Shown piece by piece: positions 35,238-61,500 of a stretch of 64,000 nucleotides of DNA; position 1 is the stretch's first letter, and each line of letters starts with the position of its first letter. The notes beneath the pieces were generated by a model that saw only the letters and a program-made list of their open reading frames with translations, was not told the origin of the DNA and did no database searches. The stretch is from Bacteroidales bacterium (lineage in GTDB: Bacteria > Bacteroidota > Bacteroidia > Bacteroidales > UBA932). Position numbers and translations under genes: made by a program. The DNA is taken from assembly GCA_017938925.1 (NCBI GenBank), contig JAGBAO010000011.1:1-64000 (forward strand), in the 5' to 3' direction.

Positions 35238-35238
35238 A

Positions 35239-39210: not shown

Positions 39211-39254
39211 GTAGCGGGACGCAGGATTGAACTGCGGACCTCATGATTATGAAT
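39211..39254 (-). other. attL: Left attachment site: 44-bp copy of tRNA-Met 3' half
   Basis: Bases 39211-39254 are identical to 63844-63887, which lie within the intact tRNA-Met. The copy covers the acceptor 3' strand, T arm and part of the anticodon arm, and stops at the anticodon. The tyrosine integrase gene begins 190 bp away. This marks the left end of a roughly 24.6-kb integrated element. Confidence 0.92.
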
Positions 39255-42055: not shown

Positions 42056-43483
42056 ATGCAGACATCCGGACCGATAAGACAAGATTTGGGATTTCACCAT
42101 GCCGAAGGGTTTGGTGATGTAAAGCCGTTTGCGAAGAATCTGTACGAAGCGACTTGTGACGGGAAGAAATGTCTGCTCAAGACTCCTGGGGACCTGACCT
42201 CTCTGCTCAGAAGGGAGTACGACATATCCTGCAATCTTCAGCATCCCTATATCCTTACTCCTCTCCGGTATTCAGAAGATACGCCAGTCGGTCCTGCCAT
42301 TGTGATGGAATATGTCGAAGGGTGTACTCTGACGGAGTTTGTCGCCAAGGGACAGTCACACGAAGTCCTCAGGAGACTCCTCGCGGAGATCCTGGATGCG
42401 GTGGATTATCTGCACAAGAAAGGGCTGATCCATAACGACCTGAAGCCGGATAACATTCTGGTTAGCAATATTGGAAACCATATCAGAATCATTGACTTTG
42501 GTCTGTCAGACAAAGATGCGGAATATCTGATCAAGCGTCTTGGGGGTACGGACGGAAGTTCTGCTCCGGAAGTGATTGAAGACAATCCTGATGTCCCTTT
42601 CACGGCATCTTCCGATGTGTGGTCGTTGGGGTATATCATCCGGATAATGTTCCCTAGCAGATACAGGGGCATTGTAAGGAAATGTCGCAGGCAGAATCCT
42701 AAGGACCGATACCCTGACATTGTTTCTCTTGAAAAGGCTCTGCGTAATGCAGACCATCTGCGCAGATTCCTGATTTCGCTTCCGTTTGTGTTCTGTGCGG
42801 TTGCGATTATTGCGATGTCGGCATATTCATATCACCAGAAGAGATTGCAGGAAGAGGAGTCCTTGAAACATCGGCTCGATTCCCTCAGGAATGAAATCCA
42901 GCATGAAGTCATATACGACACTCTGCTGACCACTCAGAACGTCGTTCAGACCATCTACCAGACGGTCTATGATACATTAGTGACAACCAAGCACGAAGTT
43001 ACCCATGAAACCATCTATGACACCCTGCTGACCACGAAACATGAGGTGACATACGAGACCGTCGTTGATACCGTGATTGTGGAATCGTCCCCGCAAGTGG
43101 AAGAACTTAAAAGACGGTTGGAGCAGTTACAGAAGGATTCTGCTTATGTTGCCAAAATCGAGAAGGATATAAGGAAAATGTATCTTGAGACAAAGAAGAT
43201 TCTGGAGGATCCTGACAAGGTGCCGTACAAGGATTTCGGGTACAATTATGGTTTGGCGTGGTATAGGCGCGTGGAAAAATGGACGAGAGAGTCCGTCCCT
43301 GAAAAATATCATCCGGAATGTCGGACTTTCTTGGAAAAGTATTATAACCAGCTTTTAGAGATATGGATGGCAAAACCATCAATAGTAGATGCTTTCAGCA
43401 AGGGAGAAATCTCCGAAGAGGAAAGAGAATATTATTCGAGTCAGACAATCTATAAGCCTTTCAAACCCGTTTCACGCAAGTAA
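42056..43483 (+). CDS. Membrane-anchored serine/threonine protein kinase with repeat-containing extracytoplasmic part
   Basis: The 475-residue protein has a Hanks-type kinase domain (about 15-230): LLKTPGD with the ATP-binding lysine, catalytic loop HNDLKPDN (126-133, HND in place of HRD), DFG (147-149) and SAPEV. The glycine-rich loop is poorly conserved. A membrane helix follows (about 240-260, LISLPFVFCAVAIIAMSAY). Outside it are at least three repeats of the form YDTLxTTxxxVxxExVYDT (about 300-355), then a coiled coil and a helical C-terminus. It opens the signalling cluster; a convergent partner gene overlaps its end by 23 bp. Confidence 0.8.
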   Translation: MQTSGPIRQDLGFHHAEGFGDVKPFAKNLYEATCDGKKCLLKTPGDLTSLLRREYDISCNLQHPYILTPLRYSEDTPVGPAIVMEYVEGCTLTEFVAKGQSHEVLRRLLAEILDAVDYLHKKGLIHNDLKPDNILVSNIGNHIRIIDFGLSDKDAEYLIKRLGGTDGSSAPEVIEDNPDVPFTASSDVWSLGYIIRIMFPSRYRGIVRKCRRQNPKDRYPDIVSLEKALRNADHLRRFLISLPFVFCAVAIIAMSAYSYHQKRLQEEESLKHRLDSLRNEIQHEVIYDTLLTTQNVVQTIYQTVYDTLVTTKHEVTHETIYDTLLTTKHEVTYETVVDTVIVESSPQVEELKRRLEQLQKDSAYVAKIEKDIRKMYLETKKILEDPDKVPYKDFGYNYGLAWYRRVEKWTRESVPEKYHPECRTFLEKYYNQLLEIWMAKPSIVDAFSKGEISEEEREYYSSQTIYKPFKPVSRK

Positions 43484-44039
43484 GCCCATTGCATTTTCCC
43501 ATGGTATAACTTGCGATGCGTTTTCCCTCGTGTTCCAGATCATCCACCAGAAGGCACCTTCCCTGAATGAAACACCTGCATGAGAAAGTATCTCCCTTCA
43601 CTATGCTCGCATTGACCACCTCGTCCACCTCAAAACGATAGTTCCCAAGATACTTCAGAGAACACTCCCTGTCAGGAAGCCATGCGATATAAATCCTGTC
43701 TCCGACAGCGAGGTCGTCAGCCTTGATATGATGCTCCCCACAGGACAGCTCCGAATCCTTGATGCCCGACGAACTCAGATAGTCACAGAAGTCCTGAAAG
43801 TGCTTGTAGCCGATGGCTTTTGAGAGAATATTCAGAATGTCGTCAGAGACATGTTTATATTTTTTTGTTTCTACATATAACCGCCTGAACGTACTATCTG
43901 AAATCATATCTTTTGTCTTTTCAAATACAAACGAAGAGGCATCCGTAAAGTTCTTTGGAGTTCTTATCGGCGTTCCGAATGCTTTTTCAAATTTCAGCTT
44001 CAGAAGTGCAATGCGTGGTGAGTCAGATGGTATAGCCAT
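43461..44039 (-). CDS. Hypothetical protein converging on the kinase gene
   Basis: The protein (192 aa from ATG 44039) has an N-terminal helical region (KLKFEKAFGTPIRTPKNFTD, SDSTFRRLYVETKKYKHVSD) that looks like a DNA- or protein-binding helix bundle. Residues 105-192 form a small beta domain (HIKADDLAVGDRIYIAWLPD, LGNYRFEVDEV). I recognise no family with confidence. Its 3' end overlaps the kinase gene by 23 bp, so antisense interference between the two is possible. Confidence 0.55.
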   Translation of the reverse strand: MAIPSDSPRIALLKLKFEKAFGTPIRTPKNFTDASSFVFEKTKDMISDSTFRRLYVETKKYKHVSDDILNILSKAIGYKHFQDFCDYLSSSGIKDSELSCGEHHIKADDLAVGDRIYIAWLPDRECSLKYLGNYRFEVDEVVNASIVKGDTFSCRCFIQGRCLLVDDLEHEGKRIASYTMGKCNGLTCVKRV

Positions 44040-44123
44040 GATAGATGCTTGTTTGAACGATGGGCACAAAAGTGGTGATTTTTTATCTGATTAGCAATAT
44101 CCGCATGCCCCACTGCTTATAGA

Positions 44124-44172
44124 AGACCTAAAAAGACTTAGACGAAATTCATCAACCTTACCTACATTTGTG
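44124..44172 (+). promoter_or_regulatory. Island promoter module, copy 1
   Basis: The 49-bp stretch AGACCTAAAAAGACTTAGAC then GAAATTCATCAACCTTACC and TACATTTGTG recurs at 44623-44671 almost unchanged. TACATTTG (44163-44170) is a TAnnTTTG box. A shorter form (AGACCCAAAAAGACTTAGG) starts at 51437 before the kinase of the TerY triad. The shared module suggests one regulator for several units of the island. Confidence 0.7.
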
Positions 44173-44301
44173 TTGACATATTAAAAAGTGTTCCGCAAGC
44201 GGATAACTCCACACTTTTCGTGTTTTCAACCTATGTAGTTGTTCTGCCTTGGAGTTGGGTGGACTAAAAGTTGTGCGCGACACGAATCAGCGTTTCTTGT
44301 C
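44173..44301 (+). ncRNA. Structured leader (copy 1) of the small-protein unit
   Basis: After the promoter, AAAAGTGT (44184-44191) can pair with ACACTTTT (44211-44218), enclosing CCGC-AA-GCGG. The pieces GCGGATAACTCCACACTTTT, TTGGAGTTGGG and GTTGTGCGCG recur in the leader before the first BspA gene (44894-44982). Conservation of the parts in noncoding DNA suggests a functional leader RNA. Confidence 0.5.
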
Positions 44302-44526
44302 ATGGCATTCGATGCAAAATTCAGGAATTTCGGGGTCATTAAGATTTCCGATGATTGTGCCAATGTCCGTCTTTATTGTGATAAAGTCAACCAAACTCCT
44401 ATCTTTGTCGGTTCCAGTGGCGGTGGTGCAGCATCTGCGATGTGGGCTGGTGAAGCAGTGGTAGTCACGTTGAAAGATGGAAGAGTGCGCAGATATAGGG
44501 ATTTCACTAACTGGGACTCGATTTAA
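44302..44526 (+). CDS. Small hypothetical beta-rich protein
   Basis: This 74-residue protein starts MAFDAKFRNFGVIKISDDCA. Its strands are short (VRLYCDKVNQTPIFVGSSGG, AVVVTLKDGRVRRYRDF) and suggest a small beta-sheet module. An in-frame start at 44239 would extend into the leader and is less likely. Family not recognised. It follows promoter module copy 1 and a structured leader. Confidence 0.5.
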   Translation: MAFDAKFRNFGVIKISDDCANVRLYCDKVNQTPIFVGSSGGGAASAMWAGEAVVVTLKDGRVRRYRDFTNWDSI

Positions 44527-44622
44527 TACGATTTATGACCTTTGTTGTGAACAAAGTGTTTGAAGATGGGCGGGAATTGGACATTTTGTCTGATTCCCGC
44601 CCGATTTCGAATATACTTTACA

Positions 44623-44671
44623 AGACCCAAAAAGACTTAGGCGAAATTCATCAACCTTACCTACATTTGTG
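44623..44671 (+). promoter_or_regulatory. Island promoter module, copy 2
   Basis: Near-identical to 44124-44172, with TACATTTG at 44662-44669. A second TAnnTTTG box (TATATTTG) lies at 44721-44728. Both precede the BspA-type genes. Confidence 0.7.
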
Positions 44672-44734
44672 CAAGCAAATATTTGAGTATAAAGGGGCCT
44701 GGTTTTGAACTTATTTCTTTATATTTGCACTTGA

Positions 44735-45016
44735 CATATTGAAAAGTGTTTCGTGCCTGAGTCGAAAACTGGTAATTTTTAATTTCCGGGGCGAATACAC
44801 TCTTATTCTCGTATGCTATATCGTGTTCTCGATATACGTTCGGGTGTGGAGTGCATATTCGGAAATAGGTTTACCAGGCCTCGACTCAAATATGCGGACA
44901 ACTCCACACTTTTCGTGTTTTATAACCACAAATATTATGCTGTTCGCTTGGGGTTGGGCAAACATGGTAGTTGTGCGCGTCCTAGGCATTCATCCAAGAA
45001 ATTTAAACCCAAACTT
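44735..45016 (+). ncRNA. Structured leader (copy 2) of the BspA unit
   Basis: GACATATTGAAAAGTGTTTCG at its start and GCGGACAACTCCACACTTTT at 44894 match the two halves of leader copy 1, but about 120 bp of unrelated sequence separates them here. It ends with TTGGGGTTGGGC and GTTGTGCGCG before the ATG at 45017. An open frame through this stretch is probably not translated, because the conserved pieces ignore the reading frame. Confidence 0.45.
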
Positions 45017-46108
45017 ATGAATAACCAATGGCTAATCATAGAACAAATCGGAGAGGATGTTGTTCTAAAAAAATGCTCACAGGAAGCAGAAGGGACTATT
45101 GTGGTTCCGGAAAATGTTACTCGCATTGAGAAATATGCATTTTGTCTATGCGAAAAGGTGACATCTGTATGTCTGCCAAAATTGATACCAGGAATATGTG
45201 CAGGTAGTTTTATGGGTAGTAGCCTGAAAACCTTGGTTGTAAATGGTGTCGAATTTGAACAATCCGAACTCCAAGGAGATGAGTATAGTAGTTATTATAA
45301 TGAAAGACATCGTGACATCTGCAAGAAATATTTTCCTAAGAACGGAGAAGTAAATTCAAATATAGATACCGCATTCTGCGATATATACAATAATTTTCTT
45401 TCTTTCAAAGAACATATTGTGTCAATCCTGCGCAATGAAGTCTATCGGATAAAAGCAGAAAATGCCTTCTTTTATTTAGAAGGATTTTTGTATGAGCATT
45501 TTGCTGAGTTGTCTGAAGAAAACAAAGAACTTGCCTTATGTTTCTTAGAACACTCTAGTAAATGTTATATGGCAGAAGCTGCGTATGCCCATAATATTCT
45601 TGAAGGAAACATAAAACTAGAATCAGAAGAGCAAGGTTTGAATATCGCTAAGCAACGGTTGGCTTCTGCCGTATATAATGGGGCGTCATTGCTGAAGTTA
45701 CGAAATATAGCTTGTCTTGCAGACTTGCTTCTGAACCACATGCCGGAATTGTCTCCACGTGAGCGTAAGATAAAAGCGGCTCAAGCATTGCTTAAGAGTT
45801 GGGATTCCTATGAGGGAAGAGTTACAAGTATGTCTTCAATGACCCTACCTCTGAATGGATTTGGTCCTAATCAGAGTAACGGAACAACTTCCATTCAGGA
45901 CATGTGTAAGGAGATAGGGATTGATGTAAAGGATATTGTGGGAGACGGAAATGAAGATTTAGAAGTATTAGATGAATGTCGTAGGTGGAATATCGCAAAT
46001 GAACTTTGCGAGTCACTCGTGAATGATGAAGATTTACAGATGACACCGTTCATTGAATCCCTAATCGAATACTTTGTCTCTATAGAAAGCAGAGAAAATC
46101 AACGGTAG
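45017..46108 (+). CDS. Protein with one BspA-type repeat and helical C-terminal domain
   Basis: The 363-residue protein starts MNNQWLIIEQIGEDVVLKKC, shared nearly letter for letter with the next gene. One or two LRR_5 units follow (VPENVTRIEKYAFCLCEKVT). Residues 120-363 form a helical domain without repeats (ENKELALCFLEHSSKCYMAE, ELSPRERKIKAAQALLKSWD). No signal peptide is seen, so it is probably cytoplasmic. The shared N-terminus suggests duplication followed by domain exchange. Confidence 0.65.
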   Translation: MNNQWLIIEQIGEDVVLKKCSQEAEGTIVVPENVTRIEKYAFCLCEKVTSVCLPKLIPGICAGSFMGSSLKTLVVNGVEFEQSELQGDEYSSYYNERHRDICKKYFPKNGEVNSNIDTAFCDIYNNFLSFKEHIVSILRNEVYRIKAENAFFYLEGFLYEHFAELSEENKELALCFLEHSSKCYMAEAAYAHNILEGNIKLESEEQGLNIAKQRLASAVYNGASLLKLRNIACLADLLLNHMPELSPRERKIKAAQALLKSWDSYEGRVTSMSSMTLPLNGFGPNQSNGTTSIQDMCKEIGIDVKDIVGDGNEDLEVLDECRRWNIANELCESLVNDEDLQMTPFIESLIEYFVSIESRENQR

Positions 46109-46146
46109 CAACCAAGACATATTATAACCTTCTAAAACAGGAACTA

Positions 46147-48066
46147 ATGAATAACCAATGGCTAACCATAGAACAAATTGGAGAGGATGTTGTTCTAAAG
46201 AAGTGCTCGCAGGAAGCAGTGGGAGTAATAGAAATACCAGGAAATGTTACTCACATCGCAGATGGTGCATTCGGTGAATCAAATGTCACTATTAAAAATT
46301 TACCGGAAGGATTAAAAGCAATAGGCAAAAATGCTTTTGCTAGTTGCTCGTTTTATAGGCCATTAGTCAACCTCCCTGAGTCTTTAGAAAAGATTGGTGA
46401 GGGTGCCTTCGCTCGGACTAATATAAAAGGCTTGTACATACCAGCATCAGTGACACAGATTGACGGAAGAATTTTACCGGGAACATGTAAATTGGTAATC
46501 GTTGATGAGGATAATTCGATATATGATTCTAGAGACAATTGCAATGCAATTATCGAAACGGCAACAGGTAAACTGATTGAAGGATGTGATTATGGTTATA
46601 TTCCTAAAGGTGTGGAAGAAATCTGTGAATATGCGTTTGCTCATAGAACACTTATGAAAGCTGACTTGCCGCACACATTGGAAAAAATAGGACGCGAAGC
46701 CTTTGCAGAGGTAATTTGGCTTGTTAATACTGTCGTAGATGATGATATTGAAGTAGAAATAGGAATACCATCAAGTGTTAGAGAAATTGGCGACTGTGCG
46801 TTCAATACATTTGATGATTGGTATCATGGTGTAAAGATTATAATTGATGGCAAAACAGATATAAAATTAGGGTCTGAAATAACTTGTTCTCCTGATGATG
46901 TTGAAGTTGACAATGAGGAGATAAAGTGGATCTTAGAAAATTACAATATCTATTACGACTACGAATTCCCTTTTGAAAAGATTGAGGAAATTCCTTCAAA
47001 TTGTCTTAGATATTCAATCCACCAAGATGATACTTTTCAACATATTCCGGCTAACGTAAAACATATTTGCAAAGACGCATTTGAAGGTTGTACTCATCTA
47101 GAGGAAGTGGAAATTTATAATTCCGATGTTAAAATTGATTTGAGTGCATTCAAAGGTTGCTCGTCATTAGTCAGTATAGTAATGCCGGATGGTGATGGGA
47201 ACCTAATCGAATGGAATGCAGAAGAGAGGGATGCTGTGTTCTTTTATGCAAATGCATCTAAATTTATCGTTGACGGTAAACCTAATGTCCCAAATGGGGT
47301 TGAGATTATTCCAAATTCAGCATTTAAGAATTGTTTGGAACTAACAGAAGTGATTATTCCTGAGTCGGTGCATACAATAGAGGATGAGGCGTTTAGCGGA
47401 TGTGTAAATCTCAAGAAAATAATTGTACCAGAATCTGTATCCAGTGTGGCTAATAATGCGTTTGAAGGTTGTAATTCAGTTGTTGACATAATCGCCTCTG
47501 ATGTTATTAAATGGAAAATTGCTCCCCATACTTTTGTTGTAAATGGTAAACTTAATGTTCCAGAAGGAGCTAATGCTATTCCAAATTCTGCATTTAAAGA
47601 TTGCTTGGAACTGAATGAAGTTGCGATCCCAAAATCTGTGAGCACGATTGGATACGGAGCTTTTGAAGGATGTATAAATCTTCAAAAAATTACAATTGCT
47701 GAGAAGTATGGGGAGTCTTTGCAAACGCTTGAACGTCACAGGGTGCGTCGAGATGCATTTAAAGGATGTAGTTCCGTGACTGAGGTGGAAGTGCCATATA
47801 TAATAAAATGGGAGCATTTTACCAAGTTCGTACTTCGTAAACATACCAAAGAGGGTAAATGTATAATTCCAGAGTATATTGTTCATAAAATAAGGACTAT
47901 ACGTTTGGAGGGCTGCAATGAAATTGAAGAACTTGAAATACCTAAAGGACTAAGTTCTGCGACAATTGTAGGTTGTCAAAATCTGAAAAAGGTTATTTGC
48001 CCAGAGGATGTTAGGCTATTAGTTAATGACTGTCCAAACTTTCAAGGAAGGATACAAAAGATATAA
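46147..48066 (+). CDS. BspA-type leucine-rich-repeat protein
   Basis: The 639-residue protein is mostly LRR_5 (BspA-type) repeats: AFxNCxxLxxVxIPxSVxxI occurs many times (for example AFKNCLELTEVIIPESVHTI). The repeats with Asn/Cys at fixed places form a solenoid for protein binding. It has no secretion signal, unlike surface BspA proteins, so it is likely an intracellular recognition component. It begins with the same 26 residues as the preceding gene, and the DUF2130 gene follows 2 bp after its stop. Confidence 0.8.
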   Translation: MNNQWLTIEQIGEDVVLKKCSQEAVGVIEIPGNVTHIADGAFGESNVTIKNLPEGLKAIGKNAFASCSFYRPLVNLPESLEKIGEGAFARTNIKGLYIPASVTQIDGRILPGTCKLVIVDEDNSIYDSRDNCNAIIETATGKLIEGCDYGYIPKGVEEICEYAFAHRTLMKADLPHTLEKIGREAFAEVIWLVNTVVDDDIEVEIGIPSSVREIGDCAFNTFDDWYHGVKIIIDGKTDIKLGSEITCSPDDVEVDNEEIKWILENYNIYYDYEFPFEKIEEIPSNCLRYSIHQDDTFQHIPANVKHICKDAFEGCTHLEEVEIYNSDVKIDLSAFKGCSSLVSIVMPDGDGNLIEWNAEERDAVFFYANASKFIVDGKPNVPNGVEIIPNSAFKNCLELTEVIIPESVHTIEDEAFSGCVNLKKIIVPESVSSVANNAFEGCNSVVDIIASDVIKWKIAPHTFVVNGKLNVPEGANAIPNSAFKDCLELNEVAIPKSVSTIGYGAFEGCINLQKITIAEKYGESLQTLERHRVRRDAFKGCSSVTEVEVPYIIKWEHFTKFVLRKHTKEGKCIIPEYIVHKIRTIRLEGCNEIEELEIPKGLSSATIVGCQNLKKVICPEDVRLLVNDCPNFQGRIQKI

Positions 48067-48068
48067 TT

Positions 48069-49379
48069 ATGAAAGAACTGAAATGTCCCAAGTGCGGGAG
48101 TGTATTTACGGTAGATGAGGCTGATTACGCGTCTATTGTAAGCCAGGTGAAGAATCAGGAGTTTGAGAACGAACTGAAGAAGAGGATGCAGGATGTCGAT
48201 GCCTTGTATAAGGAGAAGATGAAGGTTGAAGAAGCTAAGGCTGAGGCTGAGTTCACGGATAAGTTAAGAGAAAAAGATGAGCAACTTAAACAAAACGAGT
48301 TGGTCTTGGCGGAGTTAAGGAAGGATTTGGCAGGAATAGAAGAGAAGAAGGATGCGGAGAGGAGAGAGGCAATGGCCCAGAAGGAGATTGAGATTAAGGA
48401 GCTTCAGGGTCGTATAGATAATAGTGCGTCGGCAACAGAAAATGCTATCCTGAAAGTACGTGAGGAGATGTTGAAGCATGTTCAAGAAAAGGAGATGCGT
48501 ATTGCCGAACTAGAGAAACAGCAGGAATTGTCATGCAAAGAGGCTGAACTTGAGAAGAATGCACTGGTGCAGAAGCATGATGCCAAGGTGAAGGATCTGG
48601 AGCTTGAGATAAGTCGCTATAAGGATTTGAAGGCAAGGTTGTCAACCAAGATGGTTGGTGAAACATTGGAGGAGCATTGTCGCGTTTTATATGAAACGAC
48701 TCTTAGACCATTGATGCCGACAGCAACTTTTGGTAAAGATAACGATGCTTCAGACGGCACGAAAGGCGATTTTATTTTCAGGGATTATGACAACGGGCTT
48801 GAGTATATTTCCATAATGTTTGAAATGAAGAACGAAATGGATGAAACAGGTGCAAAAACCAAAAATGAAAAGCACTTCCCTAAGTTGGATTCTGATAGAA
48901 AGAAAAAGAAATGCGAATATGCCGTGCTGGTGTCTTTGTTGGAATCAGATAGTGAACTATATAATAGCGGTATTGTAGATGTGTCTCATTGCTATCCTAA
49001 GATGTACGTTATTCGTCCTCAGTTCTTTATTCCACTTATTACTCTACTTGTAAACGCGTCAAAAAAGAGTATCCAGTATCAGAGGGAGTTGGTAGAGGCA
49101 AAGAGCAGATCTGTTGATATCAATAATTTTCAGAATCATCTGGATGAGTTTAAGCGGATATTCTCGGGGCATTACAAGAATGCCAGCAATAGGTTTCAGG
49201 AGGCGGTTAAAGGTATTGACAAGACAATAGGAGAACTGGAAAAAATCAAGAAGGCTCTTCTTTTGTCTGAAGATCACCTGAGACTGGCCAATAAGAATGC
49301 CGAGGAGCTCAACCTAAAAGAGCTTACGGCTGATAGCCCTGGTTTGCGCGCTCAATGGGAAGAACTTCAGAAACAGTGA
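48069..49379 (+). CDS. DUF2130 protein with N-terminal zinc ribbon and coiled coil
   Basis: The 436-residue protein has CPKCGSVF at residues 5-12 (half of a zinc ribbon), a long coiled coil (about 25-185), and a C-terminal DUF2130 domain (ARLSTKMVGETLEEHCRVLY, GDFIFRD, MFEMKNEMDETGAKTKNEKH), which resembles restriction-endonuclease-like folds with D/E-x-K. Such proteins are linked to DNA processing. It is 1 bp upstream of the DUF2779 gene, so the two are coupled. Confidence 0.75.
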   Translation: MKELKCPKCGSVFTVDEADYASIVSQVKNQEFENELKKRMQDVDALYKEKMKVEEAKAEAEFTDKLREKDEQLKQNELVLAELRKDLAGIEEKKDAERREAMAQKEIEIKELQGRIDNSASATENAILKVREEMLKHVQEKEMRIAELEKQQELSCKEAELEKNALVQKHDAKVKDLELEISRYKDLKARLSTKMVGETLEEHCRVLYETTLRPLMPTATFGKDNDASDGTKGDFIFRDYDNGLEYISIMFEMKNEMDETGAKTKNEKHFPKLDSDRKKKKCEYAVLVSLLESDSELYNSGIVDVSHCYPKMYVIRPQFFIPLITLLVNASKKSIQYQRELVEAKSRSVDINNFQNHLDEFKRIFSGHYKNASNRFQEAVKGIDKTIGELEKIKKALLLSEDHLRLANKNAEELNLKELTADSPGLRAQWEELQKQ

Positions 49380-49380
49380 G

Positions 49381-51435
49381 ATGAAGCAAAAACTATTTAC
49401 CAAGTCTGCATTCAAGATCGCTTTGGAGTGCCCAAGGCGATTGTTTTATGCTTATGATAGTAATTTGTATGCCAATCAGGAACTTAATGATGATTTCCTG
49501 AAATCTTTGGCAGAGGGTGGTTTTCAGGTGGGTGAACTGGCAAAGATTTATTGCGGAGTTACGTCTGAAACTGACATAAAGACCCTTGATTATGATCAGG
49601 CAGTGGAAGAAACAAAACTCCTTTTTGAAAGGGAGAATGTCACTATTGCAGAGTCAGCCTTCAGGTATGGTAATCTTTTCGTTCGTGCTGATATTCTTGA
49701 AAAGAGAGGGAATGAAATTACCTTAATTGAGGTCAAGGCAAAGTCCTGGAATCCTCAGGAGGATAGTTTTGTTGATAAAAAGAATAAGGTGCGCAGTGCC
49801 ATCCGTCCTTATGTGTATGATGTTGCTTTTCAAAAGTATGTCATTGTCAAGGCTCTTCAGGAACTCTATCCGCAACAGGAGTTTGTCGTCAAGGCTCGTC
49901 TTATGATGGCTGATAAGTCGCGTATCGCTACGTTAGACGGATTGAATCAGCTGTTTCGTATCTGTAGGGCGGATAATGGCAGGACTTTCATTGATGTAGA
50001 TGCCCAGGCATGGGATATGGCTGGAGCAACCCCAGCAAACGATAGGGTTTTGCGTGCATTTGATGTCGATGAATTGTGCGACAGAATCATTTCTGGAGAT
50101 GTGGCAGAACAGGGTGCACCTGATTGGATGGAGGGTATGACTTTCGAGCCTTTTGTGGCTAAGATGTCCGCTCTTTACTGCGACAGAGTGAAGGCTTCGG
50201 ATTTCAGGCTTGGTTCAAAGTGTTTCAGTTGTCCGTTCTACAAGACAGCATCAGATGCTCCCGAAAAGCGTGATGGTTACATGGAGTGCTGGAAAGAGAA
50301 GGCTCATTTCTCAGAACTGGATTTTACAAGACCTCTTTTGAAGGACCTTTCAGGACAATATATCCGTAAGGACAAGATGGTTGGGTCGGGGAAATATTTT
50401 ATGGAGGAACTTACCACAGACGATATTCCTCGATCAACGGGGAAATGCCCTGATGGACTGGATCATCTCCAAAGAAAGTGGCTTCAGATTGCGGTGGCAA
50501 CCCGGAATACAAGTCTGCAAAAAGGGTTCGGGAGTTTCTTGAATGATGGGATATATCTTGATACGGATGGTCTGAAGGATACAATGGCGGAATGGAAGTT
50601 CCCTCTTCATTTCATAGACTTTGAGACGAGCGGTGTGGCTCTTCCTTTCTATAAAGGAATGAAACCATATGAACAGGTGGCATTCCAGTTCTCTCATCAT
50701 AAAGTGGAGTTGACCGAAGGGAACGGGTATAGCGTCAGTCATGCCAACCAGTATATCAACACGGAGAAGGGCTTCTTTCCAAACTTTCAGTTTGTCCGCG
50801 AATTGAAGAATGCTCTTGAAGGTGATGAAGGAACGATTTTCCGCTACTCCAACCATGAAAATACCATCCTGTGCAAAATTCATGAGCAGTTGGGTCAAAG
50901 TGAAGAGCCAGACAAAACAGAGCTTATGAGTTTCATAGAACATATAACCAAGGGAGGTGAACGTGAAATGGTGGACTTGGCGGATGTGGTTCTAAAGTAC
51001 TATTATCATCCGTTGATGAAGGGAAGTTATTCAATAAAGGTAGTACTGCCTTCTGTCCTCAATTCATCGGACTTCATCAAGGATAAATATTCACGCCCAG
51101 TGTATGGTTCTGCTGATATGCCGAGTCTCAATCTGAAGGATAAGGTGTGGATCCAGATGGATTCCGATGGGATTACTGTCAAAAACCCGTACAAACTTCT
51201 TCCTCCGATTGCTTCGTATATAGATGTCTCGGAGGAAACCATTGAACGTATGGAGTTAGATGAAGGGGAAGCCATAGCAAATGGAGGCGCTGCGCTCACA
51301 GCTTATGCAAAGTTACAGTTCAGTGATTCCGTAATGACAGATGCACTTAAACAGGCTCTGCTTTGTTATTGCGAACTTGATACATTGGCAATGGTCTTCA
51401 TCTGGGAGTATTTCTGGCATCAGACCCATTCTTAG
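49381..51435 (+). CDS. DUF2779 family putative nuclease
   Basis: This 684-residue protein has a Cas4/PD-(D/E)xK-like start (ALECPRRLFYAYD, RADILEKRGNEITLIEVKAKS with catalytic-type D...ExK). A Cys cluster follows (SKCFSCPFYKTA...YMECW) that could hold an Fe-S or zinc site. The C-terminal DUF2779 domain contains FIDFETSGVALPFYKG, an RNase-H/DnaQ-like exonuclease motif. Partner DUF2130 may be a second nuclease. Its role in the island (DNA processing or defence) is inference. Confidence 0.75.
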   Translation: MKQKLFTKSAFKIALECPRRLFYAYDSNLYANQELNDDFLKSLAEGGFQVGELAKIYCGVTSETDIKTLDYDQAVEETKLLFERENVTIAESAFRYGNLFVRADILEKRGNEITLIEVKAKSWNPQEDSFVDKKNKVRSAIRPYVYDVAFQKYVIVKALQELYPQQEFVVKARLMMADKSRIATLDGLNQLFRICRADNGRTFIDVDAQAWDMAGATPANDRVLRAFDVDELCDRIISGDVAEQGAPDWMEGMTFEPFVAKMSALYCDRVKASDFRLGSKCFSCPFYKTASDAPEKRDGYMECWKEKAHFSELDFTRPLLKDLSGQYIRKDKMVGSGKYFMEELTTDDIPRSTGKCPDGLDHLQRKWLQIAVATRNTSLQKGFGSFLNDGIYLDTDGLKDTMAEWKFPLHFIDFETSGVALPFYKGMKPYEQVAFQFSHHKVELTEGNGYSVSHANQYINTEKGFFPNFQFVRELKNALEGDEGTIFRYSNHENTILCKIHEQLGQSEEPDKTELMSFIEHITKGGEREMVDLADVVLKYYYHPLMKGSYSIKVVLPSVLNSSDFIKDKYSRPVYGSADMPSLNLKDKVWIQMDSDGITVKNPYKLLPPIASYIDVSEETIERMELDEGEAIANGGAALTAYAKLQFSDSVMTDALKQALLCYCELDTLAMVFIWEYFWHQTHS

Positions 51436-51436
51436 A

Positions 51437-51505
51437 AGACCCAAAAAGACTTAGGATGAATTTCCGGTTTATATCTACTTTCGCGGTGGATATAAACCGG
51501 AAATT
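51437..51505 (+). promoter_or_regulatory. Promoter module copy 3 with perfect 17-bp dyad
   Basis: After AGACCCAAAAAGACTTAGG, AATTTCCGGTTTATATC (51459-51475) is repeated in inverted form at 51489-51505. The 13-bp spacer holds TACTTTCG (51476-51483), a near-consensus -7 box. A dyad centred on the promoter box is an ideal repressor site for the kinase-TerY-PP2C operon, whose ATG is at 51508. Confidence 0.75.
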
Positions 51506-51507
51506 TT

Positions 51508-52785
51508 ATGAGTGAACTTAAGATCGGGACAATTGTAAAGTTGTCGACTGGCACGAGTGCCAAAGTTAAACAGGAACTGGGTAAGGGCGGACAGGGCGTT
51601 GTCTATCTTGTCGAGGTGTCTGGAAAGAAAATGGCCTTGAAGTGGTATCACAAGCACCCGGGAGAGGCCTTCCACAAAAATCTTCTGAACAATGTTCATG
51701 CAGGGGCTCCCGCATCGAACTTCATATGGCCACTTGCCGTCACAGAGGAGATGAACGGCTCGGTGGGCTATGTGATGGAACTGCGCCCAAAGGAGTACCA
51801 GGATATGAGCAAGTTCATCCTGACCCATGCGAAGTTTGCTGATGTGCATGCCCAGCTGAACGCCTGCCTTCAGATATGCACAGCCTTTCAGAAACTCCAT
51901 ATCCGTGGCCTGAGCTATCAGGATATGAACGATGGCAACTTCTTCATCAATCCCAAGACGGGCGATGTGCTCATCTGCGATAACGATAACGTTGCACCCG
52001 ACAAGACCAGCATGGGCATCCTCGGCAAAGCGGGATATATGGCACCGGAGGTGGTCGAAGGAACAACGATGCCGAACAGATATACGGACTATTATTCTCT
52101 TGCCGTATGCCTTTTCATCCTCATATATATGAACAGACCTTTCGAGGGAGCATGGCATCTTGCCTGCCCTTGCGATAACAATCCCGAGATGGCCAAAAAA
52201 CTGTTCGGATTCGAGTCTGTCTTTATCATGGACCCTACAAACACAAAGAACAGACCTGTGCCGGGAGTTCACAACAATGTGATACGTCGATGGGGTGTGT
52301 ATCCATCATTCCTTGGCAAGGCCTTCTGCAAGACATTCTCGTCAGGAGCAATCAAGGACCCGACCCAGAGGCTCATGGACAAGCAGTGGTACAACATTCT
52401 GCTCCAGATCCGTTCTATGTATGCAAGGTGTCCTCACTGCGGAAAGGAAACTTTCATAGATGTGATGGCCGGTAATCCGCACTGCATATTCTGTCAGAAG
52501 GGTATAGCCGTTCCGTCTCTGAAGGTGGGACGCTTCACAATCCCTCTTGTGGAAAAGCAGACCATACATTCATGTCTTATTTCTGATGAACAGGATAGGG
52601 ATGCAAAGGCCGGAGAGGTTGTCATGAAAGGTGGTGCGACAGGCCTGAAGAATACTTCGGACACACCTTGGACCGCGATGCTTCCTGATGGTAGCGTGCG
52701 CGTCATAAACAAGGGCGAAGGTATGCCGGCAAAGCCAGGGCTGAAGGTGCGTTTCGGCCAGGGAGAAACAGGAGAATTTATTTAA
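51508..52785 (+). CDS. Protein kinase of the TerY-phosphatase triad
   Basis: The 425-residue kinase has a glycine-rich loop (LGKGGQGVVYLV), ATP lysine in MALKWYHK, an unusual catalytic loop YQDMNDGNF (137-145) and DND instead of DFG (158-160), followed by the APE segment MAPEVV. After the kinase core are two Cys pairs (CPHC about 308, CIFC about 326) that look like a zinc ribbon, and a small beta domain near the C-terminus (GLKNTSDTPWTAMLPDGSVR, FGQGETGEF) with FHA-like spacing. This is the kinase of TerY-P triads, linked to tellurite/phage stress systems. Confidence 0.8.
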   Translation: MSELKIGTIVKLSTGTSAKVKQELGKGGQGVVYLVEVSGKKMALKWYHKHPGEAFHKNLLNNVHAGAPASNFIWPLAVTEEMNGSVGYVMELRPKEYQDMSKFILTHAKFADVHAQLNACLQICTAFQKLHIRGLSYQDMNDGNFFINPKTGDVLICDNDNVAPDKTSMGILGKAGYMAPEVVEGTTMPNRYTDYYSLAVCLFILIYMNRPFEGAWHLACPCDNNPEMAKKLFGFESVFIMDPTNTKNRPVPGVHNNVIRRWGVYPSFLGKAFCKTFSSGAIKDPTQRLMDKQWYNILLQIRSMYARCPHCGKETFIDVMAGNPHCIFCQKGIAVPSLKVGRFTIPLVEKQTIHSCLISDEQDRDAKAGEVVMKGGATGLKNTSDTPWTAMLPDGSVRVINKGEGMPAKPGLKVRFGQGETGEFI

Positions 52786-52809
52786 TAATAACTTTATAAT
52801 CACATCATT

Positions 52810-53598
52810 ATGGAAAAGAACAATCCTTTTGAACTCGATGCAGTTCCAAGACGTGTAATGCCTCTGATCTTCTTGGTTGACACTTCAGGAAGTATGGATG
52901 GAGCAAAGATTGCCTCGCTCAATGTGGCCGTACAGGAGTCCCTCAAGGACGTGGGAGAAATCTCGAAGAATAACAGCGATGCACAGATCAAGGTGGCAGT
53001 CCTTGAGTTTTCAAGCGGAACTCAGTGGATGTATCCTCAGCCTATCGAATCGGAGTCCTTCAAATGGCAGGACCTTCAGGCAAGCGGTCTGACAAGCCTT
53101 GGAGCCGCTTACAGCGAATTGAACGAAAAACTGTCAAAGTCGCATGGATTCATGGCTGAGCCTACAGGTTCGAGGGCCCCTGCAATCATCCTTCTTACAG
53201 ACGGTCAGCCTACCGATGACTACAAGCATCCGCTTGAGAAGCTCAAAGGAAATCCTTGGTTCAAGGCAGGAGTGAAGGTTGCCATCGCAATCGGAGATGC
53301 CGATACCAATGTGAATATTCTTGCTGAGTTTACAGGCAACAAGGAGGCAGTGCTTACGGTTCATAATGTCGATCAGCTCAAGAAGATCATAAAGACAGTC
53401 AGCGTTACTGCGTCTCAGGTGGCATCTCAGTCGGCTTCAGTCGGTGTGTCTGGCAATGGCTCGACAACTCCTGCGGATGCTCAAAGTCAGGTGGTCAGCA
53501 GTGTTACCAATGCCGTTGATACGGATGACGCGTTGAAGAATGTGGATCAGGGAGACAGTACCGCAAACTCAGGCACAGACGACTGGGAAAACTGGTAA
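52810..53598 (+). CDS. terY: TerY-like von Willebrand A protein
   Basis: This 262-residue protein has a VWA domain (about 15-200) with the metal-ion adhesion site DTSGSMDG, the second-loop Thr region SGLTSLGAAY and the acidic loop LLTDGQPTDD. It ends in an Ala/Ser/Thr-rich tail without signal. TerY proteins are cytoplasmic and pair with a kinase and a PP2C phosphatase, as here on both sides (24 bp and 12 bp gaps). It likely acts as the substrate or scaffold of the triad. Confidence 0.85.
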   Translation: MEKNNPFELDAVPRRVMPLIFLVDTSGSMDGAKIASLNVAVQESLKDVGEISKNNSDAQIKVAVLEFSSGTQWMYPQPIESESFKWQDLQASGLTSLGAAYSELNEKLSKSHGFMAEPTGSRAPAIILLTDGQPTDDYKHPLEKLKGNPWFKAGVKVAIAIGDADTNVNILAEFTGNKEAVLTVHNVDQLKKIIKTVSVTASQVASQSASVGVSGNGSTTPADAQSQVVSSVTNAVDTDDALKNVDQGDSTANSGTDDWENW

Positions 53599-53610
53599 AA
53601 TGTTGAGATT

Positions 53611-54618
53611 ATGGTGTTTAATACCAGCATATTAGGTGCAAGCCATGTTAAGGACAATAAACCGTGTCAGGACTATTCTGTTGCCTGGCAGTCGGAAGAG
53701 GATGGCGCGGTTGTCCTTGTGGTGTGCGATGGTCATGGAAGCGATACCTATGTCAGAAGTGATGTGGGTTCCCGTCTGGCAGGCGAGATAGCATTGGAAG
53801 CTGTGAAGAGGTTCATCCTTCCGGTCGGTGATATCAGGCCTGACTCTGACTGGATAGAGGGTGTGCAGGGTGCTGTGACTGCCCGTGAGAGCGATGTTCT
53901 GACCAGATATAGCGAAGCCCTGCCTAGGGCGGAAGAAGACATGACTGATACTGATTGGATGAGGTACCGTCAAAGGCTTGAGTTTCGCGGGCAGGTCAAA
54001 GGTATATACGAACAGGATGCCATATTTCAGGCTTTGTTTTCTTCGATATATGAGAAGTGGCTGGAAGCGATCCATCAGGATGCCAGGCAGAACCCTTTTA
54101 CTGAAGAGGAACTCTCTCGTCTGGGCAGACATAAGTTGGTGAAGGCGTATGGAACAACGCTTATGACCTATGTACAGACAAAGGACTTCTGGTTTGCATT
54201 CCATATTGGTGACGGAAGGATGCTCTCTCTTGACGAAAATCAGGAGTGGAGACAGATAGTTCCATGGGACTGCAACTGCTTTCAGAATCAGACTACCTCA
54301 CTGTGCAATACAGACCCCGTTCCGATGTTCCGTTATGCCTTTGATGGCACAGGCACATTCCCGAAGGCTGTGTTCTGTTGCAGTGACGGCATAGAGGACT
54401 CATACGGAGATTATGATGTTGCTCCAGAGCGCCTGCACAACTACTTTTCCGGTCTGCTGAATGTCTTTGTTCAGGAAGGTAAAGAAAGTACAATGTCTAA
54501 GCTGGAGGAGTTTCTGCCGAAACTAAGTGCAGTGGCAAGCAAGGATGATATGTCTATTGCGGGAGTTATCAATGAGGGAGATTATCATCAAAACATAGAT
54601 GAAGATGAACTTACATGA
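53611..54618 (+). CDS. PP2C family serine/threonine phosphatase of the triad
   Basis: The 335-residue protein has the PP2C motifs NKPCQDY, VVCDGHGSD (metal ligands Asp, Gly), AYGTTLMT (Gly-Thr motif), IGDGRM and VASKDDMSIA near the end. PP2C enzymes are Mn/Mg-dependent and here would reverse the triad kinase. The gene is 12 bp after terY, and the next gene begins before its stop. It is cytoplasmic. Confidence 0.85.
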   Translation: MVFNTSILGASHVKDNKPCQDYSVAWQSEEDGAVVLVVCDGHGSDTYVRSDVGSRLAGEIALEAVKRFILPVGDIRPDSDWIEGVQGAVTARESDVLTRYSEALPRAEEDMTDTDWMRYRQRLEFRGQVKGIYEQDAIFQALFSSIYEKWLEAIHQDARQNPFTEEELSRLGRHKLVKAYGTTLMTYVQTKDFWFAFHIGDGRMLSLDENQEWRQIVPWDCNCFQNQTTSLCNTDPVPMFRYAFDGTGTFPKAVFCCSDGIEDSYGDYDVAPERLHNYFSGLLNVFVQEGKESTMSKLEEFLPKLSAVASKDDMSIAGVINEGDYHQNIDEDELT

Positions 54619-55276
54619 GACGATCAGGTTGCTGATAAAGGAGCAAGGGAAGAATGTAGTCGGTAGCCCTACCTTTATGGGAATGCTGGATGATTATGGC
54701 GCATTTCGCGAAGAAGAGCCTGCGACCAAGACAATCGTCCGGGAACTTGTAAGGACAGGTCAGATGCAAAGGTTTATCGACTCCCCGAATAAGGGCAGAA
54801 ATCTGCATTTTGAAATTCGGACTATTGTCTCAGAGACTGCACGTTCCGGTGGATTTCGGGAAGATCTTGTTTCCGATACATTAAAGAGGATAGCCCTTGG
54901 GATTGGCAAAATACAGAAGGAACTGGATTGGCCGACTCTCAATGAGGAAAAGCCGTCGGCAAAGGCTAGTCTTCAGCCAGCAGTAACAGCGGGGACGAAG
55001 ATAAAAGCCAAGGCAGGACCTTCAATGTGGCAGAGGATTAAACGAGGAATATACTACTATGCTGATTTATGGTGCATGATTCCTGTCGTAATCTGTTTCA
55101 TCGGTGCCGTAATAACGTTATTTCTGTCTGTCTTTGCGTTCTTCGCTGGCTCTCCGGAAGCAGGATATTGGGCAAAATGGCTTTTGGTGTGCGTTGTGAC
55201 GGGCGTTTTTGTCTTTATAACATATTGTATAGTGGATAATCACGAGGAGTGGTTTGTTGATAAAAAAAGAAGATGA
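54599..55276 (+). CDS. Membrane protein with N-terminal helical adaptor domain
   Basis: The 225-residue protein has an N-terminal helical domain (LHETIRLLIKEQGKNVVGSP, FMGMLDDYGAFREEEPATKT) of the kind seen on bacterial kinases and chaperone-linked proteins as an adaptor, a linker, then two membrane helices (WCMIPVVICFIGAVITLFLS and WLLVCVVTGVFVFITY). Its start overlaps the PP2C gene by 20 bp. It may carry the TerY-P triad to the membrane. Confidence 0.6.
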   Translation: MKMNLHETIRLLIKEQGKNVVGSPTFMGMLDDYGAFREEEPATKTIVRELVRTGQMQRFIDSPNKGRNLHFEIRTIVSETARSGGFREDLVSDTLKRIALGIGKIQKELDWPTLNEEKPSAKASLQPAVTAGTKIKAKAGPSMWQRIKRGIYYYADLWCMIPVVICFIGAVITLFLSVFAFFAGSPEAGYWAKWLLVCVVTGVFVFITYCIVDNHEEWFVDKKRR

Positions 55277-55572
55277 TGACTATCATAAAATTACTATCTT
55301 TATTGTTCAATATTGTGGGGTGGCTTGCATTGGATATATATCTGTGGACAGTCTCATGGTGCCCCGGAGTGGGCGGACTGCTGGGGCTTATAGGCTTCTT
55401 CGTCGGCTACTCTATCAGCGGAGGTATGACCGTCGCCCCTCGTGACTACTGGAGACTGCCCGATTATGAGGTGTTCAGAAAGAAAATGCGTTATGGCAAC
55501 TCGATAGCCGGTGCAGTCACAGCAATATCAGCGTTTGTTTTATTTGTCATCAAGACTATTATTGAATCATGA
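55273..55572 (+). CDS. Small membrane protein
   Basis: This 99-residue protein has three hydrophobic stretches (IIKLLSLLFNIVGWLALDIY, GGLLGLIGFFVGYSIS, AGAVTAISAFVLFVI). It overlaps its upstream neighbour by four bases (ATGATGA-type junction) and its downstream neighbour by four. The family is unknown; it is coupled to the triad's membrane partner. Confidence 0.55.
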   Translation: MMTIIKLLSLLFNIVGWLALDIYLWTVSWCPGVGGLLGLIGFFVGYSISGGMTVAPRDYWRLPDYEVFRKKMRYGNSIAGAVTAISAFVLFVIKTIIES

Positions 55573-55958
55573 TCAGATTTATACTGTTGCTTTGTGTCGT
55601 GATGTTGGCCTCATGCAACTGCCATATTAATGAAGAAGTGTCCGTAAAGGTCCATAAGGATTCCGTAAAGACAATCACTCTCGTGCATATCCTTTCATAC
55701 CCCGATGAGCCCCTCGTTCGACTCTTGCAGGATGCCTCAAACAAGTCCGTATGCTATTCCTATATTGAGAAGGAAGGCTCGGACTCGCTGATTCTTCTTC
55801 CTTCCTGTGGAGAATTTTTGGGCGTGTCCCATGATGATGGCCTGATAATCATGGACTCGTATTACTATGATGATAAAGGCAGGCATGGCGTTGTTCAGGG
55901 CTATACGTTTGACGGAGAAAAAGTATGCGAAATGAAGACAAAAATTAATGAGAAATGA
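55569..55958 (+). CDS. Small lipoprotein
   Basis: This 129-residue protein has a lipoprotein signal (MIRFILLLCVVMLASCN, Cys16) and a beta-rich body (VSVKVHKDSVKTITLVHILS, LIIMDSYYYDDKGRHGVVQG). It is the only exported member of the triad operon apart from membrane proteins, and overlaps its neighbours by four bases on each side. Function unknown. Confidence 0.6.
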   Translation: MIRFILLLCVVMLASCNCHINEEVSVKVHKDSVKTITLVHILSYPDEPLVRLLQDASNKSVCYSYIEKEGSDSLILLPSCGEFLGVSHDDGLIIMDSYYYDDKGRHGVVQGYTFDGEKVCEMKTKINEK

Positions 55959-56509
55959 AATCATATTTTCCTCATTATTACGAGTTCCATCAAGACGATT
56001 GGGAGACCTTTGAAGAACTCGCTAGGACCGTATCTGTTGATGTAAAGACAGGAAGAAAGACCGTTGAATTCAATCCTGAAAAGTTCAGACAGGAAGGTGA
56101 TTTTATCATTTCCAATGACGAGGGTAGGCTGCATTTATGTTTTTCGGATGATGAGGTGGTTCGTGTCCCAGAGGGTGTAAAAGCGATTGCACCCAGTGCA
56201 TTTCATAAGGATTTATGTCCGAATGTCAGGCACATAATTCTTTCAGATACCGTGGTGGGAATAGCACAGTACGCTATCTGTGGGTGTTCTGTGGAAGAAC
56301 TGACGATTAATAACAAGTATATCTATATCAGCGACAGCGCTTTTGACTGGTGCTCCTCTTTACGGGTAATACATCACATCTCGGAGCGAGTCACGATACA
56401 CGTTAAAGAAGATGAGGGTAGATGTGCCCGACCTGTAAGATTTGAAAGAATGGAGTCATCCGGAATAGAAGATGATAGCGATTTTGACCCTGATGACCTG
56501 CCTTTCTGA
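55955..56509 (+). CDS. Small BspA-type repeat protein ending at an in-frame TGA
   Basis: The 184-residue protein has two or three LRR_5 units (VPEGVKAIAPSAF, VGIAQYAICGCSVEELTINN, SDSAFDWCSSLRVI). Its C-terminus is acidic (DDSDFDPDDLPF). The frame stays open for 105 further codons beyond the TGA, as far as 56827, so this may be the N-terminal part of a longer protein. It overlaps the lipoprotein gene by four bases. Confidence 0.6.
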   Translation: MKSYFPHYYEFHQDDWETFEELARTVSVDVKTGRKTVEFNPEKFRQEGDFIISNDEGRLHLCFSDDEVVRVPEGVKAIAPSAFHKDLCPNVRHIILSDTVVGIAQYAICGCSVEELTINNKYIYISDSAFDWCSSLRVIHHISERVTIHVKEDEGRCARPVRFERMESSGIEDDSDFDPDDLPF

Positions 56510-56827
56510 GAAGATTTCAAGAATTTTCTTGGAGACATTTTCGAGAAAAAGACCAGAAAAATCCTAAGAAAAGAATGCAAAAAAATCCGAGAAAAGAACG
56601 AGAAAAATATAGCAAAAAAGATTTTCAAACCGGGAGATGAAATTACCATTGAGGAGGTTAACGATGTTTTTCGTAAGGTAAAAGAAAACGGAAGACGATT
56701 CGCTATAAACGAGAACAGTGATATAAAAACAGAAGTTATAGACGGGCACCTAATTTTTGACACTTTGGATGATATGAAAAAATATTATGGTGGTTTATAC
56801 ACTATTGAGGAGGTGTTCAAATGGTAA
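56510..56827 (+). pseudogene. In-frame continuation after TGA, lacking a conventional start
   Basis: The 105 codons after the TGA at 56507-56509 are in the same frame as the BspA-type gene and encode a very basic helical stretch (EDFKNFLGDIFEKKTRKILR) followed by a compact acidic module (KPGDEITIEEVNDVFRKVKE ... DGHLIFDTLDDMKKYYGGLY). No ATG, GTG or TTG in frame precedes the module, so it cannot begin independently. Readthrough, a recent nonsense mutation, or an unusual start are all possible. The TGG-TAA end overlaps an ATG at 56821. Confidence 0.5.
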
Positions 56828-56856
56828 TGCTGCCATCACAGAAGAAAGATTATAAG

Positions 56857-57270
56857 ATGAAAACAAATTGCTTAAAGTGCATTGAGATTGACCCTAAGAT
56901 CATAGAAGAAAAGCTTAGGGCGGAATTTGGCCCATCATATCTGGAGCGCGTGAAACCTTCAGAAGATATTTCTCATATCAATATTAAAGAAGGAGCAGAC
57001 TCAATTTTTCCAAGCGACAAGTTTGATGTTTATGTAAGACGTGGAGATATATGCAATCCTCGTTTTCATGTCGCAAGTGATGGGTGGGATGTCGCATTCT
57101 TTATCAATAACGGGAAGGTACATAACATCTGCAAGCGGGGAGCCGATATGGGGGTTCTAAACAAGATGCGGGAGGATGCTATTAAGTGGCTACCTTGTCA
57201 GAATGCTTATGAGCCTGACAAAACCAATCGCAAAGTCATCGAAATCATGTGGGCGAGAATGCACGGGTAG
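56857..57270 (+). CDS. Small hypothetical protein
   Basis: This 137-residue protein starts MKTNCLKCIEIDPKIIEEKL; an in-frame ATG at 56821, overlapping the previous frame, would add 12 residues. It contains FDVYVRRGDICNPRFHVASD and GWDVAFFINNG, recalling DUF4160-like proteins (PHFHV...), which are small and often in toxin-antitoxin-like pairs. Cytoplasmic. It is the last gene of the signalling cluster. Confidence 0.5.
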   Translation: MKTNCLKCIEIDPKIIEEKLRAEFGPSYLERVKPSEDISHINIKEGADSIFPSDKFDVYVRRGDICNPRFHVASDGWDVAFFINNGKVHNICKRGADMGVLNKMREDAIKWLPCQNAYEPDKTNRKVIEIMWARMHG

Positions 57271-59553: not shown

Positions 59554-60495
59554 ATGGCAAATAAAATCATAATTAAATACTTAACAGAAACATTTGAGGA
59601 AATTGGAAACAAAGAACATGAGAATCAGTTTCTTGAAGCAATGGAAACCCTTTCAGAAATGAATTTCGCAATTAAGGAGATGAGTTTCGCTGAGTTGATG
59701 GACCAGTCAACTTGGTTGGCGATGAACTCGCACGAGTGTCAGACCGATATTGAGGACTTTGATGACGACAGCGTTCTGTATGAGACGTGTAGGCATAATC
59801 TCCTTTATTGGCAAACAGATGTGGACCTTTTTTATGAGGAAGTTTGCTCGGCTAATCCGGAATTGGAATGGCTCGATGAATTTTTAGTAGCATACCTCGA
59901 TGAAAGGATATGTTCGATCTACCCATACCTGAAAGATGCTGAAACATTCAATAAGTATTATGAGGAACATGAGAGTGAGTTGTCGTATCAGCATGGCTCA
60001 TTGATGAGAGTTAATGTCTTTGGGGACGATGATGAAGATGTTGTTGAAACCCTCGTAAATGCTTATGAGATCAGAAGACAAGGTTTGCAAGATCTTGAAT
60101 CAGGGGAGCTAGAACAGCTTGATGAACGTTTTCAGGAGATTGTAGAAATTGTTTCTGAAATAGATTTTGAGATTCAGGAGATGACTCTTGGTGATATTCT
60201 GCAAGGTGCGCTTCAAAACTTTTGTTTGTCGTGTGCAAATAAAGAGGAACTTAAAACAAAACATTTCAGTATGGTTGATTTGTATAATCTATGTATTCAG
60301 TATGTTGCAGAAATCATTGCTACTTCAGAATACTTCTGTGAAAATATCGGGGTGAACTATCCAGATTTTGGGTGGGTGGATGATGTGGTAAGCGACTGTT
60401 TACATCAGAAGATGTGTTCTGTGTATCCATATCTCAAGAACGAGGATGCCTTTGTTACCTATGTTGAATCTTTAAAAAATGAGGACTATGAATAA
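59554..60495 (+). CDS. Acidic protein with internal duplication
   Basis: The 313-residue, strongly acidic protein contains two copies of about 150 residues each. MNFAIKEMSFAELMDQSTWL aligns with IDFEIQEMTLGDILQGALQN, and LDERICSIYPYLKDAETFNK aligns with LHQKMCSVYPYLKNEDAFVT. No motif of a known enzyme is visible. The charge and repeats could fit a DNA mimic or a structural partner; unknown. The next gene overlaps its last eight bases. Confidence 0.6.
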   Translation: MANKIIIKYLTETFEEIGNKEHENQFLEAMETLSEMNFAIKEMSFAELMDQSTWLAMNSHECQTDIEDFDDDSVLYETCRHNLLYWQTDVDLFYEEVCSANPELEWLDEFLVAYLDERICSIYPYLKDAETFNKYYEEHESELSYQHGSLMRVNVFGDDDEDVVETLVNAYEIRRQGLQDLESGELEQLDERFQEIVEIVSEIDFEIQEMTLGDILQGALQNFCLSCANKEELKTKHFSMVDLYNLCIQYVAEIIATSEYFCENIGVNYPDFGWVDDVVSDCLHQKMCSVYPYLKNEDAFVTYVESLKNEDYE

Positions 60496-61499: not shown

Positions 61500-61500
61500 G

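Follow-up and report, generated by a model that had tools for sequence, protein, structure and literature searches.

The Escherichia coli genes yegI, pphC and yegL, which we take to encode a kinase, a PP2C phosphatase and a VWA protein as neighbours together with the Hsp70-like yegD, are one gene set to which TerY-P (TerY-phosphorylation) triads can be compared. The TerY-P triad was reportedly set out by Anantharaman et al. in 2012, and Gao et al. in 2020 are said to be a further source on TerY-P systems. Here, a triad of this kind was analyzed in a window (the whole stretch of DNA studied) of 64,000 nucleotides from contig JAGBAO010000011.1 of a Bacteroidales bacterium, where it is carried by a 24.7-kb integrative element. 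In the sections of the sources used, TerY-P is reported as anti-phage (PMC7699616, PMC11090510), and the effector-associated domains (EADs) of MoxR-vWA and GAP1 conflict systems are described as small end domains that recruit varied effectors and sensors, a kinase-PP2C-vWA trio being mentioned there only as an add-on of GAP1-N2 systems (PMC7159879). The functional core of the locus at 51508–56509 is likely to be a TerY-P phosphorylation switch with partners recruited by a shared adaptor domain. Proteins containing this adaptor were found beside the triad in several phyla and almost always on its strand, with the domain fused to varied parts.

A preliminary description had presented 42056–57270 as one system composed of a membrane kinase with outside repeats, BspA-type proteins, two nuclease-like proteins, a kinase-TerY-PP2C triad, membrane partners and a lipoprotein, and all genes named in it were found open and in place. 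The assignment of the triad to the TerY-P type was supported, with all three domains matched in Pfam. The triad kinase (51508–52785, + strand; Pkinase 7e-18) contains a zinc ribbon at about 52429–52494, and three cysteines of its CxxC...CxxC pattern were invariant and the fourth nearly so in 31 sequences, as expected for TerY-P. Behind the zinc ribbon, the C-terminal domain (about 52501–52782) is, according to structural modelling, a beta-sandwich of the FHA fold. The TerY-like VWA gene (52810–53598, +; VWA 4.3e-11) has an intact metal site (DTSGS...T...D) in its translation, and the adjacent PP2C phosphatase gene (53611–54618; PP2C_2 2.8e-34) is on the same + strand. From 53611 to 56509 the genes overlap head to tail.

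For comparison, 83 loci were used, consisting of the best 80 of 182 triad-kinase relatives from 84,980 species genomes and three short loci (3.1–4.3 kb) from a sample of genomes of the same family; they are partly dependent, L004 lying inside L067 and the pairs L059/L060 and L094/L095 having the same scores or identity. By tblastn, 77 of these triad-kinase loci had a VWA match and 72 a PP2C match, and the gene order was nearly always kinase, VWA, PP2C, except for L075 with VWA before the kinase.

The adaptor is an all-helical domain of about 95 residues, located N-terminally (residues 9–101, nt 54623–54901) in the product of 54599–55276 (+), named P0009, and followed by two transmembrane (TM) stretches. 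It had escaped the preliminary description, where this product was a "membrane partner". A profile was seeded with five N-terminal ends of the membrane partner family and grown on the open reading frames (ORFs) of the window and the 83 loci. On convergence it comprised 79 proteins, of which one is P0009 and the other 78 are spread over 53 of the 83. The worst accepted E-value was 4.6e-10 and that of the next ORF 0.033; the count excludes a weak ORF in L084 (E 0.27), which might be a member that the profile missed, and the L099 member was omitted from alignment A2. The adaptor was situated towards the N-terminal end in 77 of the 79 proteins and was preceded by a stretch with a zinc-ribbon cysteine pattern in 18. 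Among 78 proteins scanned against Pfam, the fused parts were WG (9), Sel1 (8), RCC1-like (7), MORN (6), FGE (5), Fib_succ_major (4), LRR_5 (3), ankyrin (3) and others including TPR, and many adaptor proteins besides P0009 carry TM stretches. No Pfam family matched more than nine of these 78 proteins and none matched P0009; the domain itself is covered by no Pfam family. In NCBIfam, none of the 79 domain sequences was matched, and P0009, the only member tried, had no match in PHROGs. An AlphaFold2 model of the adaptor was compact and all-helical (pLDDT 91.6, pTM 0.85), with no convincing relative among solved structures.

Because the 83 loci and the window had served as training material for the profile, whole-genome and held-out searches, in which a limited number of candidates per genome was scored, provide the fair test of linkage. 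Within the 83 loci, the adaptor was found at 27 of the 37 that have 6 kb on both sides, and 74 of 75 comparable adaptor proteins were encoded on the strand of the kinase, compared to 635 of the 836 remaining ORFs up to 8 kb away, a set in which VWA and PP2C are counted. Across the 39 seed triad genomes, an adaptor hit was obtained in 34, near the triad in 31. The family sample (199 genomes) contained 32 genomes matching the kinase, of which four above 300 bits were counted as triads and the other 28 reached at most 62.5 bits; the adaptor was present in three genomes, each time adjoining the triad, and those of G019 and G104 lay outside the fragments used in profile training. In the phylum sample (296 genomes), the adaptor was detected only in the window's own genome, which was also alone in having a strong kinase tail, with weak ones in six others. 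The spirochaete order of the seed genome L079 (labelled a Treponema metagenome-assembled genome, MAG) comprised 96 genomes, eight with a strong kinase tail, six with the adaptor and five with both. After removal of L079 the numbers were seven, five and four among 95 genomes (Fisher P 5.4e-5), two genomes with weak kinase-tail matches (G615 and G625, E 4e-4) not being counted as triads. In the four held-out genomes with both, none of which is in the seed set, the adaptor was adjacent to the triad kinase, within about 7 kb, and the kinase loci showed approximately 71–76% DNA identity to seed loci, or up to 88% over stretches below 100 bp; one of them (G610) had an additional stray adaptor hit at the end of another contig. 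The fifth held-out adaptor, on a contig of 4.1 kb, has a PP2C gene as its neighbour and matches no seed locus. Taken over the three samples, the adaptor was found in nine of 590 distinct genomes, and in all nine a triad gene shares a contig with one or more of the copies.

Two plasmids outside the seed set showed the same organization. On a Prevotella sp. E2-28 plasmid, genes for TerY-C, kinase, VWA and PP2C are followed by two adaptor proteins, one with FGE, in a neighbourhood annotated as "hypothetical protein". On a Methylomonas sp. AM2-LC plasmid, the triad is followed by five adaptor proteins, four of which carry Sel1, Tim44-like, Clp_N and ClpX zinc-finger parts. On this plasmid, which is unannotated (L169, CP157007.1), Clp_N and the ClpX zinc finger are each fused ahead of the adaptor.

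Downstream of the adaptor gene, a small membrane protein (55273–55572, +) with what look like two TM stretches in translation and a putative lipoprotein (55569–55958, +) are encoded, so that the membrane partners and lipoprotein of the preliminary description are in place, their TM stretches and lipoprotein features being read from the sequence. These are followed by a 184-aa LRR_5 (BspA-type) protein (55955–56509, +; 5.9e-10), the third LRR_5 protein of the block. The close relatives L023, L024 and L025 keep the triad, the adaptor-TM protein and the small membrane protein (52–80% identity), and L023 and L024 also retain the lipoprotein (63–82%) and the 184-aa LRR protein (45–46%). Upstream of the triad, the LRR gene P0003 (46147–48066, +) had LRR_5 matches in five stretches (4.5e-71), and P0002 (44813–46108, +) reached only 5e-6, just under the Pfam cut-off; over its first 75 residues, P0003 is similar to residues 69–144 of P0002 (54%). 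The proposed coupling of BspA proteins to the triad held in part: BspA-type LRR genes recur beside triads, but only in a minority, with P0003-like LRRs at seven of the 83 loci. A P0003-like LRR is fused within two adaptor proteins (L076 and L082), and three LRR genes flank a disrupted triad in L150, from a genome of the spirochaete order. It is possible that P0002 and P0003 are partners of the switch. A small ORF of 95 aa upstream of the triad (44239–44526, +) showed 82% identity in L022 and 42% in L025.

We know of no adaptor protein at the E. coli yegI-pphC-yegL locus, where no search was made. Pfam presumably holds EAD models, and no EAD match was found for P0009 and ten plasmid proteins (seven with the adaptor), nor among the 25 commonest of the 83 families for 78 members. 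Compared to TerY-P as treated in the cited sections, the locus is similar in having an adjacent Ser/Thr kinase with zinc ribbon, a TerY-like VWA and PP2C, and in its island and defence-linked settings. It differs in its partners, which are adaptor-tagged repeat, FGE and membrane proteins instead of the McrBC/CoCoNuT proteins of those sections, and in the kinase tail, where an FHA fold is predicted behind the zinc ribbon and the cited text has a zinc ribbon or OB fold. As with EADs (Kaur et al., 2020), a small domain is repeated at the ends of many proteins around one core, with many copies in some genomes (20 hits in genome G516). Unlike EADs as characterized in the part of that source used, the adaptor was seen on none of the triad's own proteins, so that homotypic pairing is not apparent (the 79 adaptor proteins gave no BLASTP match at 1e-4 to the kinase, VWA or PP2C of the triad), and it falls outside the families of Pfam.

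Several observations weigh against a switch with adaptor-recruited partners. No adaptor was found at 30 of the 83 loci, many of them on short contigs, yet 10 of the 37 well-covered loci also lack it, and the triads without a detected adaptor include those of G556, G587 and G538. Conversely, L074, L077, L080 and L088, four of the six loci without a VWA match, keep a triad-type kinase and an upstream adaptor gene with neither VWA nor PP2C matched at the locus. Of the 83 adaptor hits in the 39 triad genomes, 55 lay no farther than 10 kb from the triad kinase (with G516 left out, 51 of 63); of the 28 distant hits, 16 were in the one genome with 20 hits and three were just 11–15 kb off on the same contig. 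Three triad genomes (G508, G514 and G532) have no adaptor near the triad but carry it at other places, and in two of these cases (L153 and L155) the neighbouring gene resembles, by eye, the UvrD-like helicase gene of L168; we read this as action in trans, and distant adaptors in general as partly acting in trans or unlinked, judging from gene positions. The Arg and Ser/His residues with which FHA domains bind phosphothreonine did not appear conserved by eye in 31 kinase tails. Furthermore, no conserved Ser/Thr was visible in the adaptor alignment, and the Ser/Thr content of the linker after the adaptor was only mildly raised (0.148 vs. 0.117). In PADLOC-DB, the VWA and PP2C of the window were unmatched and the kinase matched only kinase models of other systems.

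G516, which is the genome of L057 and a MAG labelled Gammaproteobacteria, has its 20 adaptor hits distributed among seven contigs, and some of these hits are fragments. An adaptor gene adjoins a UvrD-like helicase gene in L153, L155, L168 and L170, with a triad nearby or not, and the L168 helicase, the only one checked in Pfam, contains an exonuclease domain.

If the switch operates as proposed, the adaptor would dock on a triad component, a stimulus would shift the balance between kinase and PP2C, and phosphorylation of the partner or its linker would switch the output of the partner on or off. In the element studied here, the adaptor protein would be anchored by its two TM stretches, which together with the co-made membrane protein, lipoprotein and LRR protein leads us to expect the inner membrane as the place of sensing or action; the outcome would most likely be anti-phage or envelope-stress protection. 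A wider proposal, which we make with less confidence, is that TerY-P triads may be the hub of a widespread polymorphic receptor/effector platform, in which a dedicated adaptor unnamed in Pfam and NCBIfam links exchangeable sensors and effectors, namely solenoids, propellers, FGE, Clp-related domains and membrane proteins, to the one switch. If true, this platform would be a bacterial phospho-signalling counterpart of adaptor-based immune receptors. The shared adaptor predicts which proteins the switch controls in each genome, including those encoded elsewhere, and turns "hypothetical protein" neighbours into testable partners, and the FHA-fold tail suggests a site where a partner could be read.

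The same unit might instead serve an envelope or protein-quality stress response, the triad tuning membrane or chaperone/protease partners, which we regard as less likely but to be taken seriously. As for yegD in E. coli, Hsp70-like genes occur near the triad, at eight of 80 loci including that of the window, and together with the Clp-related parts fused to the adaptor on the Methylomonas plasmid they favour such a role, with which the TM stretches and the membrane and lipoprotein partners also agree. On the other hand, BREX genes adjoin some triads: in L170, PglZ and BrxL immediately precede a short TerY-C-like gene and the kinase, and homologues of both are upstream of the kinase in L042, L051 and L101; these neighbours and the anti-phage activity reported in the cited sections favour defence. 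Carriage on an integrative element and plasmids and the patchy spread of the strong triad kinase (four of the 199 family genomes) also speak against stress response alone. The two roles may not be mutually exclusive. That the adaptor is simply a common domain of mobile islands, close to triads by hitch-hiking, is the least probable of the explanations considered: islands do accumulate unrelated cargo and the 28 hits mentioned above lie either on a different contig from the triad kinase or over 10 kb away from it, but all nine adaptor genomes of the three samples had a copy on a triad-gene contig, the stray hit of G610 apart.

The single defence system of the preliminary description, in which the triad, BspA solenoids and membrane kinase would act with the nucleases as effectors, is very improbable as well and is, from gene distribution, already largely refuted by missing linkage. 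The DUF2130 (48069–49379, +; 7.3e-78) and DUF2779 (49381–51435, +; 2e-24) genes are present as described (Pfam), contiguous with the rest on one element and separated by gaps of just 2 and 1 bp from the genes before them. A neighbourhood comparison showed, however, that the triad recurs without them: DUF2130 was found at none of the 83 triad loci and DUF2779 at one, as a 43-codon remnant (tblastn) that still sits ahead of the triad in the sibling L023, and L024, with a kinase 86% identical, has neither. Within the family sample, DUF2130 was present in 15 and DUF2779 in seven genomes, among which only the window's genome has a strong triad kinase. G079 (L151) has the two genes next to each other but no triad, and DUF2779 is carried by two plasmids whose gene tables, which are incomplete, list neither DUF2130 nor a triad gene up to 5 kb away. 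With a distribution uncoupled from the triad in loci and family genomes, an outcome that the preliminary description had itself named as refuting its reading, the pair is firmly placed as an independent passenger, and the same reasoning was applied to the membrane kinase (42056–43483, +; Pkinase 1.4e-30), for which the case is weaker. This kinase is present with its one TM stretch and T/YDTL-rich repeats, as read from the translation, and its start agrees with the start codon in relatives. Together with an opposed gene for a 202-aa partner (43461–44069, −) it forms a pair (42056–44069) that is retained in L022, L023 and L025. Relatives of its kinase domain, mostly the kinase domain alone, occurred in 56 of the 199 family genomes (with scores of at least 100 bits in 28) and at five places in the window's own genome, itself included. 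The pair is probably a separate travelling module, and the preferred core thus leaves out the nuclease-like genes and probably the membrane kinase as separate cargo.

The integrative element, whose presence had been stated in the preliminary description, is inserted at a tRNA-Met gene and bounded by a perfect 44-bp direct repeat. The left copy (39211–39254) is identical to the right copy (63844–63887), which is the 3′ part of the tRNA-Met gene (63844–63918, −), and a tyrosine recombinase gene (39448–40683, +; Phage_integrase 7.9e-10) is located just inside the left repeat, giving the integrase and the direct repeats, one in a tRNA 3′ end, that are expected of a tRNA-targeted integrative element. 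The identical 44 bp were also found in L023, from another Bacteroidales genome, directly beyond the LRR homologue of the homologous unit. Outside the right repeat, the ORFs have a chromosomal look by eye (L157). In the right part of the element, five ORFs (59554–63772, +) had no Pfam match better than E 0.02, and the four of them scanned against PADLOC and PHROGs gave no matches. To the left of the element, the attachment repeat is partly present a third time (19 bp, 38930–38948), which hints at an older or tandem insertion, and two large neighbouring methyltransferase-like genes are present at 32949–37773 (−), of which the one at 35239–37773 (−) is PglX/type IIG-like (2.4e-63).

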